From a virus: DNA of 48,053 bases. The position numbers and the translations under genes are program-made. Position 1 is the stretch's first letter; each line of letters starts with the position of its first letter. Shown here one piece after another: positions 24,423-40,983 of this stretch. The notes beneath the pieces are model-generated. The model searched no databases. It was not told the origin of the DNA and was given only the letters and a program-made list of their open reading frames with translations. Location: the IMG/VR virus record IMGVR_UViG_3300011432_000022, positions 1 through 48,053 of that record; one strand, given 5' to 3'.

Positions 24423-24650
24423 TCACGCGGCACGCTCCGAGGCGGGAAGGAACGACGAGGCGGGTACGCCGCACAGGCGGGCCGCCTTCTCCAGTTCGAC
24501 GACGTCAAAAGCAAGAAGCCCGGCCAGGCGGCGGGACAGCTGCGACTGGAGCATCCCGAGCTCTTCGGCGACTTTCTGCTGAGTCAGCCCGGCCTCGGCC
24601 ATCGCGGCCCTGACCCGGGCGCCCACTGCTTTGCGGATGTCGTCGTCCAT
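24423..24650 (-). CDS. XRE-family HTH regulator, Cro-like
   Basis: The 75-aa protein is one Cro/C1-type HTH domain: AGLTQQKVAEELGMLQSQLS, then a helix LAFDVVELEKAARLCGVP. It is the first gene of the early leftward operon and diverges from a second XRE gene. ATG 24650 lies only 8 nt from the -10 box of the predicted promoter, so the mRNA is probably leaderless. By position it may act as Cro. Confidence 0.85.
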   Translation of the reverse strand: MDDDIRKAVGARVRAAMAEAGLTQQKVAEELGMLQSQLSRRLAGLLAFDVVELEKAARLCGVPASSFLPASERAA

Positions 24651-24658
24651 GTGAGTAG

Positions 24659-24686
24659 ACCATACGGGTTTTCCGTATGCTGTCAA
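24659..24686 (-). promoter_or_regulatory. Leftward early promoter with embedded operator
   Basis: The minus strand has TTGACA (24686-24681), a 16-bp spacer and TATGGT (24664-24659). A perfect palindrome, CATACGG-N5-CCGTATG (24661-24679), fills the spacer and overlaps the -10 box, so a bound repressor would occlude RNA polymerase. Confidence 0.75.
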
Positions 24687-24689
24687 GGC

Positions 24690-24743
24690 ATGGCGCGTAG
24701 CATCCTGGCCGAACTTGACGCTATGGCGCCGCGCCATGATGAT
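24690..24743 (+). promoter_or_regulatory. Rightward regulator promoter with second operator
   Basis: TTGACG (24715-24720), a 17-bp spacer and GATGAT (24738-24743) precede ATG 24751 by 7 nt. The spacer holds a different palindrome, ATGGCGC-C-GCGCCAT (24723-24737). A half copy, ATGGCGC, occurs at 24690-24696. The -10 box is weak, so the call is moderate. Confidence 0.5.
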
Positions 24744-24750
24744 GGACGGC

Positions 24751-25134
24751 ATGACACTGCCAAACCTTGCGAAGACAGACACCCTCTCGGACCGCGTAGC
24801 CGCTCAAATACGCAGAGAGCTGGCCGGGCGGCGACAGAGCCAAGCAAGCCTTGCCAGGGCTATGGGCGTGGCTCAGATGTGGGTATCGGATCGACTGTCA
24901 GGTAAGACGCAGATCGACCTCAACGACCTTCACCGCATCGCCACGACGATGGGCCTAACGCCGGTCGACCTGTTCCCCAGGCAGGAACGGGAAGTTACGG
25001 TAACGCAGCGTCAATCGAGACAGGCCTATGTCGGTCATGGGTACAACGCCCGGCCGGATCGGGGTGGCCCGCCACCGGGGCCGAGGAGGACTGCGCTCAT
25101 ACCACACCAAACCCACCGTGTCACCAGCCCGTGA
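24751..25134 (+). CDS. XRE-family HTH regulator, probable lysogeny repressor
   Basis: The 127-aa protein has an HTH at about residues 25-60 (RQSQASLARAMGVAQMWVSD, then SGKTQIDLNDLHRIATTMGL) and a basic, Pro-rich tail. No LexA-type peptidase domain is visible, so RecA-driven self-cleavage is not expected. It faces the Cro-like gene across the switch and is followed by the integrase, as expected for a repressor. Earlier starts (ATG 24736, 24739, 24742) are possible; 24751 fits the predicted promoter. Confidence 0.75.
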   Translation: MTLPNLAKTDTLSDRVAAQIRRELAGRRQSQASLARAMGVAQMWVSDRLSGKTQIDLNDLHRIATTMGLTPVDLFPRQEREVTVTQRQSRQAYVGHGYNARPDRGGPPPGPRRTALIPHQTHRVTSP

Positions 25135-25174
25135 CGGACCGTGCGTCCGTCGTCACCTCAAGTTAACGGAGACC

Positions 25175-26035
25175 ATGTCGTTCATGTCTGATCTACTGCC
25201 CGACTACGAAAAGTGGCTACGCGCCGCCGGACGTGCCGACAAAACCATCACCGCCCGCCTCCGCCTACTCAACCACGCCGACCAGCACCTACCCTGGGGC
25301 CTCGACCAAGCCGACGAATCCGAAATCATCAACTACACAGCCGCCGCCGACTGGTCCCCGTGGACCCGCCACACCTACGACGGGCACCTACGCGGCTGCT
25401 ACCGGTGGGCGCTCGCCGCCGGCCGGATCACCCTCGACCCGATGCTGCACATCCCCAAACCACGCCAAGGCGACCGCACCCCCAACCCGTGCGGCGACGA
25501 CGAACTAGCCCTCGCCCTCACCGCCCCGCCGATGCCGTGGCGCCGCGCACTGCTCCTGGCCATGTACGCCGGCCTGCGCTGCTGCGAAATCGTCACCGTC
25601 CGCCGGCAGGACATTGTGGACGGACGCATGCGGGTCCACGGCAAAGGCGGCAAAGTCCGTATCGTCCCTGTCGGACCCCAACTGTGGGCAGAGATCGAAC
25701 ACGCCCCGCCAGGTCTGCTGTGCATCGGCGCCCGCGGCCGGCCCCTCACCGCCCAAATGCTCACCCAGATGCAACGCCCGGTGTGGCGCCGCCTCGGCCT
25801 ACCCGACGAGTTCCGCATGCACCGCGGCCGGCACTGGTTCGCCACCCGGCTCCTCGAGGCCGGCGTGGACATCCGGGTCGTGCAGGTGCTGCTAGGCCAC
25901 GCCAGCCTGCACAGCACGGAGGGCTACACGCAGGTGGTGGACCGGCGTAAGGCTGATGCTGTGACGAGGCTGCCTGACGTCCAGGCGCCCGGGCCGGTCT
26001 CTACCCGGCCCGGGCGCACCGCCGAAGCGGCATGA
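25175..26035 (+). CDS. int: Tyrosine-family integrase
   Basis: The 286-aa recombinase has all expected catalytic residues: Arg135 in YAGLRCCEI, Lys near 157-160 in HGKGGKVRI, His216 and Arg219 in HRGRHWFAT, His242 in LLGHAS, and Tyr251 in STEGYTQV. An N-terminal SAM-like core-binding domain covers about 1-95. ATG 25175 has a good GGAG site. It catalyses site-specific integration. The attP site was not recognised nearby. Confidence 0.92.
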   Translation: MSFMSDLLPDYEKWLRAAGRADKTITARLRLLNHADQHLPWGLDQADESEIINYTAAADWSPWTRHTYDGHLRGCYRWALAAGRITLDPMLHIPKPRQGDRTPNPCGDDELALALTAPPMPWRRALLLAMYAGLRCCEIVTVRRQDIVDGRMRVHGKGGKVRIVPVGPQLWAEIEHAPPGLLCIGARGRPLTAQMLTQMQRPVWRRLGLPDEFRMHRGRHWFATRLLEAGVDIRVVQVLLGHASLHSTEGYTQVVDRRKADAVTRLPDVQAPGPVSTRPGRTAEAA

Positions 26036-39042: not shown

Positions 39043-40983
39043 CTAACCGGTCGGTGTGCAGATCAGGTAGTCGGCTGGGACCGCCTGCTCCGCCACGCCG
39101 TGGGGTGTCCACTGTGTCTGGTAGGTGTACGCCACCGTCCACGTGTAGCCGAGGTCGCGCAGCGTCTGCTCGAGCTCGTCGCGGCGGTAGTAGCCGCAGT
39201 AGTCGTGACATTCGATGAACAGCGTTGGGTGGTGCTTGGCCAGTAGTCCGGACATGCCGCGCAGTGCGTGCAGGTCGGCGCCCTCCACGTCCAGCTTCAC
39301 CAGGTCGATGCGTTCGGCTTCCATGAGGACCGGTGTCGCGTCGAGCCGCTTGGCTGGCACGTCGCCGTGCTCAGGCCCGACGGTCGGATGGCCTTCCGGA
39401 TTGATGGGCAGCGTGCGGGTCGAACCGCCGGCCAACTGGCGGCCCGGGTCGTCTAAACGCAGCCACGTGTGCTCGTCCCATGCGGCTAACTCGAGGACGG
39501 TCACGTTGCCGATGTCGTTGAGCGCCAGGTTGCGCCGTAACGTCTTGGCTGTGTCCGGGTTGGCCTCCACGGCGTACACATGCTCGGCCTTGCCGGCCAG
39601 GCGAAGCGACCAGTGCCCGACGTGGGCGCCCACATCCAGCAGCACCCCACCGTCGGGCATGAGGGAGTCGACGATGGGTTTCAGCTCGGCCTCGTGGTTG
39701 GTGAAACCGAGCGCATCCCCGGTGCCCGTGCCGCGGTCAAGCCACAGCAGCCCGTCGGCCTCCCGGATACGCGGCGGTGCCGGGGCGGCTGGCCGGGCAG
39801 CGTCGTCGCGGCGCCGGTTCACCGCATCCTCGAGCTGCTTGAGTGCCGGCGCCCAGTACTCGGTCAGCACCCGGTCGGCTTGGTAGTCCTGCGCGAACGC
39901 CCACGCCGCTGCCCGCATCTGTTCGTCACGGGCGTGGTCGTACGCCTCAGCGTAGGCGTCCACAATGGCCCCGATGAGGGGCCGGCGGGCCCATGCCCGC
40001 TGGGAGTCGTGCCACAGCGGCTCGCCGGGAACTTTCCACCCGGCGCCGACCAGCTCTGGCATGGCGGTGGTGTCGGTGACCACCACCGGTGTGCCGCACG
40101 CCTGCGCCTCCACGATCGGGACGCCGAACCCTTCGCCCCACGACGTGTTGGTGAGCACGTCGGCCGCCCGGTACAGGTCGGCCACCGCCGACGCGGGCAT
40201 GCCGACCTTGTAGGCGTACTGGTCGGTCACCATGTAGCTGTCCTCGGGGAAGTCGGCCAGCAAGGCCCGCACGTCCACCCCGAGGGGTGTGGTCACATCC
40301 GTGTGCAGCACCAGCACCGCATCCGTGTGCCGGCGGCGCAGCTCCCCGAACGCCAGAATCTGCTCATAGAAGGCTTTTCGGGAGCCGTCCTTGCCGACGT
40401 TGGCCGCCACCATCGCGACCACGAACGCATCCGCCGGCAAACCGACCCGCTCCCTAGCCTCGGCCTTGTCACCGGGGAAGAACACCGACGGGTCGTAGCC
40501 GTGAGGCACGTACAGCGGCGAAAGGCCCAGCTCGGCCAGCTTGGCCTCACCGAACCGGGACATCGCGATCGGGATGGATCCGGTCTGCTCAAACCAGTCC
40601 GCCACGTTCGGCGGCACCGTCTCGTGATCGATGGGCACCCACGCGGCCGTGTTCATGTCCGCCAGCAACGGAACCTGGAAGGTCCACACATCCCCGAGCG
40701 TGATGATCAGCCCGCGGTTGGCCACCTCCTGCAGGGAGTGCCCCGGCCCACCTCCGCCGAAGTGATCGACCGCGTGTGGAATGAGCATGTCCCGGCCGTA
40801 CGATTCGGCATAGGACGGATACACGGGCAGACCGTGCCAACTCGTTTTCGCGCCCATCCAGCCGTAGTAAGCGCTGATCGCCACGTCGTGCCCCGCGGCG
40901 GCGATGCGTGGGGTGAACAGGCCGGTCTGCGTGCCGTAGCCGGTACCGACCCACGGGGCCACACTGTGCCAGAGGATCTTCAC
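39043..40983 (-). CDS. Glycosyltransferase-FkbM methyltransferase fusion
   Basis: Residues 1-390 form a GT-B fold GT4-type glycosyltransferase, with the EX7E motif in EGFGVPIVE (284-292) and ACGTPVVVTDTTAMPELVG after it. A Pro/Ala linker (about 395-410) leads to an FkbM methyltransferase (about 430-640) with motif I LDVGAHVGHWS (449-459) and LVKLDVEGAD near 560. The 646-aa enzyme could add and then O-methylate a sugar. It is inside the head operon, coupled by ATGA, so virion proteins are likely acceptors. Confidence 0.85.
   Translation of the reverse strand: MKILWHSVAPWVGTGYGTQTGLFTPRIAAAGHDVAISAYYGWMGAKTSWHGLPVYPSYAESYGRDMLIPHAVDHFGGGGPGHSLQEVANRGLIITLGDVWTFQVPLLADMNTAAWVPIDHETVPPNVADWFEQTGSIPIAMSRFGEAKLAELGLSPLYVPHGYDPSVFFPGDKAEARERVGLPADAFVVAMVAANVGKDGSRKAFYEQILAFGELRRRHTDAVLVLHTDVTTPLGVDVRALLADFPEDSYMVTDQYAYKVGMPASAVADLYRAADVLTNTSWGEGFGVPIVEAQACGTPVVVTDTTAMPELVGAGWKVPGEPLWHDSQRAWARRPLIGAIVDAYAEAYDHARDEQMRAAAWAFAQDYQADRVLTEYWAPALKQLEDAVNRRRDDAARPAAPAPPRIREADGLLWLDRGTGTGDALGFTNHEAELKPIVDSLMPDGGVLLDVGAHVGHWSLRLAGKAEHVYAVEANPDTAKTLRRNLALNDIGNVTVLELAAWDEHTWLRLDDPGRQLAGGSTRTLPINPEGHPTVGPEHGDVPAKRLDATPVLMEAERIDLVKLDVEGADLHALRGMSGLLAKHHPTLFIECHDYCGYYRRDELEQTLRDLGYTWTVAYTYQTQWTPHGVAEQAVPADYLICTPTG

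Follow-up and report, generated by a model that had tools for sequence, protein, structure and literature searches.

A lysis–lysogeny switch with two predicted operator codes in a probable actinophage, and covariation of operators with recognition helices among its relatives

The IMG/VR virus record IMGVR_UViG_3300011432_000022 (48,053 bases; hereafter the window, meaning the whole stretch analysed) contained two divergent XRE-family genes, rep and cro, on either side of a 100-bp intergenic region. The record very probably belongs to a temperate actinobacterial phage with these two genes as its lysis–lysogeny switch, and the switch most likely operates by mutual repression through two separate codes, Rep on the palindrome at 24661–24679 and Cro on that at 24723–24737. 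We infer binding, dimerisation, repression and the absence of cross-binding from four features derived from the sequence, namely the palindromes, the promoter matches, the conserved operator position and the helix–operator covariation. The rightward gene was designated rep and the leftward gene cro because of their positions, with the integrase gene directly behind the former and the early genes behind the latter. The elements of the switch were as follows.

24423–24650, minus strand: cro-like XRE gene (75 amino acids; HTH_31/HTH_3, phrog_4583), first gene of the leftward early operon, recognition helix LQSQLSRRL
24751–25134, plus strand: rep XRE gene (127 amino acids), predicted immunity repressor, recognition helix AQMWVSDRL, long C-terminal tail
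24659–24686, minus strand: promoter P_cro, TTGACA (24686–24681), N16, TATGGT (24664–24659), ATG at 24650; layout repeated in relatives
24715–24743, plus strand: promoter P_rep, TTGACG (24715–24720), N17, GATGAT (24738–24743), ATG at 24751; layout repeated in relatives
24661–24679, no strand: O_cro, CATACGG-GTTTT-CCGTATG (core TACG-N7-CGTA), perfect palindrome, predicted Rep operator
24723–24737, no strand: O_rep, ATGGCGC-C-GCGCCAT (ATGGCG-N3-CGCCAT), perfect palindrome, predicted Cro operator
24690–24696, plus strand: spare half-site (ATGGCGC) immediately upstream of the cro −35; TCAAGRCATGGCG in the same position in the related locus L195

Both palindromes and the half-site, noted in a first-pass annotation, were exact. 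Two separate exact inverted repeats (arms of at least 7, gap of at most 8) occurred in only 2 of 5000 dinucleotide shuffles of the intergenic region (0.04%), and such a pair was present in 0.6% of the 100-bp tiles of the window. Each full palindrome had a copy number of one, and no additional operator copies beyond chance were found elsewhere in the window. In viral contigs, exact copies of the palindromes were found in 50 and 79 stretches, and besides the window a strong XRE gene lay near none of them (one weak match, L136); the palindromes by themselves were therefore not diagnostic.

Two consensus-type promoters were seen in the intergenic region against 0.2 expected. They had been described as facing, but their coordinates showed that P_cro and P_rep diverge, back to back. 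Each palindrome had also been placed within a promoter spacer. This was accurate for O_rep, which filled the spacer of P_rep and abutted its −10, and was corrected for O_cro, which also overlapped the first four bases of the P_cro −10. The −10 elements were located only 7–8 nt before the start codons, and thus both mRNAs are probably leaderless, with starts at 24650 and 24751.

In the proposed mechanism, a Rep dimer on CATACGG-N5-CCGTATG would cover the spacer and −10 of P_cro, turning off cro and the early operon and leading to lysogeny. A Cro dimer on ATGGCGC-C-GCGCCAT in the P_rep spacer would turn off rep and int, leading to lysis. The recognition helices would have diverged and the operators diverged to match, each protein reading its own site only, which would give a two-code toggle.

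No close relatives were found by DNA, Cro, Rep or integrase among phages, viral contigs and genome contigs. A wider family was collected through Cro and Rep alignments and included Gordonia and Mycobacterium phages and viral loci (36 by Cro and 12 by Rep). Operators were picked on palindrome score and position alone, blind to the helices. In 55 switches, the palindrome score of either promoter was maximal 19–21 nt upstream of the start codon, and mean palindromy was 5.87 of 9 pairs for the P_cro operator (shuffled 3.37, sd 0.15) and 5.27 of 9 pairs for the P_rep operator (shuffled 3.34, sd 0.15). By this shared position, both window palindromes occupy the standard operator site of the family.

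The covariation of operator and recognition helix, proposed as a check in the first-pass annotation, was analysed by partial Mantel tests in 25 switches from the Rep clade of the window (operators of at least 6/9). The P_cro operator was correlated with the Rep helix (partial r 0.58, p 0.0005) and not with the Cro helix (r −0.02, p 0.51), and the P_rep operator was correlated with the Cro helix (partial r 0.46, p 0.0005) and not with the Rep helix (r 0.09, p 0.17). The correlations for P_cro/Rep and P_rep/Cro persisted when near-duplicates (both proteins >65% identical) were removed (r 0.47 and 0.29, respectively) and when the window was left out (r 0.56 and 0.30). As read from the aligned switches, this is a double dissociation, the P_cro operator tracking the Rep helix and the P_rep operator the Cro helix. 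It supports the earlier suggestion that each regulator owns one operator in mutual repression. Beyond that suggestion, the operator of each regulator would lie in the promoter of the other gene.

Autorepression is common for XRE regulators, and each palindrome does sit inside the own promoter of a regulator gene. Cro would then bind at 24661–24679 and Rep at 24723–24737, and cross-repression would use other sites. However, the own-helix pairing was gone after controlling for the other protein (the two near-zero values above, for P_cro/Cro and P_rep/Rep), and the repressor of phage BPs works on the cro-side promoter (PMC4557955). Autorepression through these palindromes is judged very unlikely.

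The pairing of Rep with P_cro was followed to individual residues and bases. The Rep helix EM(W/Y)VSR was found with the P_cro half-site TAAC (L153, L199, L208, L213, and L214), EMWVSL with TATC (L195), (E/D)QW(L/I)SV mostly with TCAC (L200–L207; mixed in L158 and L198), DQWLSM with TCAT (L209), (A/G)QW(L/V)SV with TCAG (L215, L218, and L219), PSWVNY with TCGC (L212), and QMWVSD of the window with TACG. Rep was singled out as the predicted reader of P_cro because several such sites belong to phages with a quite different Cro helix. In our gapless alignment, the covarying Rep residues corresponded to Gln28, Gln29, and Gln33 of the 434 repressor, which are base-contacting. When methionine occupied the Gln29 position, the second base of the core was A (T-A) in 19 of 20 half-sites, compared with 1 of 28 otherwise. 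An acidic residue at the position equivalent to 28 was accompanied by C at the fourth base in 27 of 30 half-sites, compared with 10 of 18 (p 0.011), a weaker link than that of residue 29; half-site counts are non-independent within a locus and among relatives, and their p-values are guides only.

In P_rep, ATGGCG-N3-CGCCAT was found with Cro helices of the type QxQ(L/I/V), in the window, L195, L158, and L209. The half-site bases matched those of the window O_rep at 12/12 in L195, 11/12 in L158, and 8/12 in L209, whereas the QxQ sites averaged 4.2/12 against other loci; the flanks of O_rep agreed with the window at 10/22 positions. L195 and L158 kept the P_rep palindrome along with the Cro helix, as anticipated for relatives with a conserved helix. 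The L158 site had been read as TGACGC-N4-GCGTCA, and this was replaced by ATGGCG-N3-CGCTAT, which is in register with the window.

The same operator type was present in both promoters in 12 of 30 first-collected switches, often around CGCTNAGCG, which is the classical arrangement. In these one-code relatives, the two helices matched each other and the two operators matched each other. They lend some weight to a lambda-like single code for the window, in which both palindromes would be bound by both proteins with differing affinities. The window operators, however, had no common half-site (distance 0.79 on a 0–1 scale; similarity p 0.86) and the recognition helices of Rep and Cro differed at 5 of 8 positions, so that a lambda-like code is very unlikely here; as judged from the sequences, the single operator type for both proteins that characterises Lambda was absent from the window. 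Within loci, the difference between the Rep and Cro helices rose with the difference between the operators (rho 0.74, p 0.0005, n = 18). The resolution of a tree of Rep and Cro was too low to place the one-code or the two-code state as ancestral.

The half-site at 24690 starts three bases past the TCAA of the cro −35. The ATGGCG sequence was placed identically in L195 (TCAAGACATGGCG), and was absent in L158 and L209. ATGGCGC is weak by itself, its 7-mer matches across the window being at chance level, and it is claimed as no more than a possible weak second Cro site. The same half-site could also belong to a composite site of the TP901-1 type, at which repression of rep would require a Rep–Cro complex and not Cro alone; CI and MOR act in this way on the divergent promoters of TP901-1 (PMC7250872). 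Since the P_rep operator followed the Cro helix alone and no Rep core was seen beside O_rep, a mechanism of this kind is highly unlikely, the least likely of the alternatives considered.

Several points weigh against mutual repression through two separate codes. The evidence for the whole clade is sequence inference only, and lambda-like cross-binding at lower affinity may occur. The TACG core of P_cro was unique to the window and the QMWVSD/TACG pair had no second example, so the link of this Rep helix to its site rests on the trend of the clade. The P_rep operators were poorly palindromic in several relatives. In addition, the partial Mantel test can be too liberal for related sequences; both off-diagonal pairings served as internal controls, and the shared history of the sequences was reduced by the controls, not eliminated.

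Switches in which the repressor and Cro use different sites are already known elsewhere, and separate codes are not unique to the window phage. In P2, the regulators C and Cox use different operators and each represses the promoter of the other, as proposed here, but the P2 promoters are facing and Cox is of the excisionase type, not an XRE relative of C. For the telomere phages phiKO2 and PY54, it is published that distinct sites may be bound by Cro and by the prophage repressor (PMC4997575, PMC4488713). The specificities of the prophage and lytic repressors (CB/CI and Cro) differ in these phages, as predicted for the window, one palindromic Cro site lies upstream of the repressor gene, as predicted here, and the PY54 mRNAs are leaderless. 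Unlike the window, in which the half-sites are distinct with one site per promoter, phiKO2 has overlapping codes, since CB also binds the Cro site OR3. TP901-1 resembles the window in having two repressors, divergent promoters, and distinct OM and OR motifs (PMC7250872), but its cI repression requires the CI:MOR complex on a composite operator, and none was seen in the window. BPs and the window share the cassette of divergent rep and cro with int directly behind rep, and the BPs repressor has its operator in the cro-side promoter, within the spacer (PMC4557955), as is predicted for the Rep operator of the window. However, the full BPs operator consists of two 12-bp palindromic half-sites with variable spacing and repressor sites are also found elsewhere in its genome, whereas the window dyads, of 15 and 19 bp, are single, with one copy each. 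In the literature, of which coverage was incomplete, no account was found of a family holding both one-code and two-code switches with matching helix changes.

Both XRE proteins matched the phrog_4583 profile ("transcriptional repressor"), with E values of 2.8e-13 and 3.9e-13. Cro matched the Cro of Gordonia phage TillyBobJoe at 46%, and the Cro annotation is carried by its Gordonia phage relatives. The AlphaFold2 model of Rep had the five-helix XRE fold, with a predicted local distance difference test (pLDDT) score of 88.5 and helix 3 at residues 42–49, and a profile of the family matched the 434 and P22 c2 repressors. Among the relatives, the tree placed Rep and Cro of L222 as nearest neighbours, and their helices were nearly identical, indicating a recent duplication or gene conversion inside one switch. 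In L199 (~584–720), rep was apparently broken by a stop or frame shift within the helix-turn-helix, with both promoters and int present.

The window had 67% G+C and no terminal repeats. The gene order on the minus strand was portal, protease, capsid, and tail genes, followed by the switch and the early operon, which included a RecE-type exonuclease and a ParB-like protein. Rep-like proteins were found in 32 of 301 genomes from the family of a Micromonosporaceae metagenome-assembled genome, and the host family is therefore probably Micromonosporaceae. A 646-residue frame at 39043–40983 on the minus strand joined a glycosyltransferase to an FkbM methyltransferase domain; it lay within the structural block beside the capsid gene, an unusual location. 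The 21-kb record IMGVR_UViG_3300012038_000048 (L008) carried a terminase 100% identical to that of the window, and was uninformative on the switch because the window integrase was unmatched there.

Two further elements were located at and behind the 3′ part of rep.

25175–26035, plus strand: tyrosine integrase (286 amino acids from ATG 25175; PF00589), ~40 bp 3′ of rep, same strand
24990–25174, plus strand: predicted attP-bearing stretch (3′ part of rep and the rep–int gap), suggested by integrated relatives, in which rep is truncated and int displaced

The nearest phage relatives of Int were mycobacteriophage integrases adjoining immunity repressors, for example those of Xeno and Panchino. 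Among the viral contigs of this clade, Rep was mostly 119–170 residues long with int within 341 bp behind, and in bacterial genomes it was 83–109 residues long with no int behind, with the exceptions of L206 (a 3.6-kb contig) and L213. Nine prophages in eight genomes had rep and int separated by 35–62 kb on the same contig and strand, and three genomes had shared cores of 14–15 bp within the last codons of rep. Such a layout would be expected if the 3′ part of rep contained attP, the situation in BPs with its integration-dependent immunity, where integrated prophages likewise have a short rep and a displaced int. From the tail of the window Rep alone, integration-dependent truncation had seemed absent; this reading was dropped after the prophage comparison. 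A tandem or partly duplicated prophage is suggested close to L213 on contig C3 of genome G306, where one of two equally scoring window-like integrases lies directly behind rep and the other 35 kb off.

The attP core was not found in the window, and no convincing T-arm was found for a tRNA-derived attP within rep as in Gordonia phages. The window Rep ended in HRVTSP, whereas the Reps of Gudmit, PhrostedPhlake, TillyBobJoe, and Xeno end in AA; it thus differs from Gordonia and mycobacterial Reps in having neither the tRNA-derived stretch nor the C-terminal AA tag, and an ssrA-like degradation tag, as in BPs-type immunity, was absent from its C-terminus. Because the attP core was not found and Rep had no such tag, the window was not classed as proven integration-dependent immunity. 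Ends resembling a degradation tag were present on the window Cro (SERAA) and Int (TAEAA), and Rep had no such end.

Simulations have been used to study how a duplicated repressor and operator separate into two independent pairs (for example PMC1464816). The clade offers about 25 compact natural switches of about 100 bp each, one-code and two-code, in which the operators can be read at a constant position, and this set makes the route of divergence testable with short synthetic promoters. It is an even call whether the Rep and Cro of these actinophages are related repressors that have shifted repeatedly between one-code and two-code states, individual half-site bases being set by individual helix 3 residues, with the window fully separated. 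If so, the clade would be a natural series of repressor–operator pairs diverging after duplication. The clade also provides an initial residue-to-base table for these Reps, which could allow immunity groups to be predicted, as well as orthogonal repressor–operator parts.
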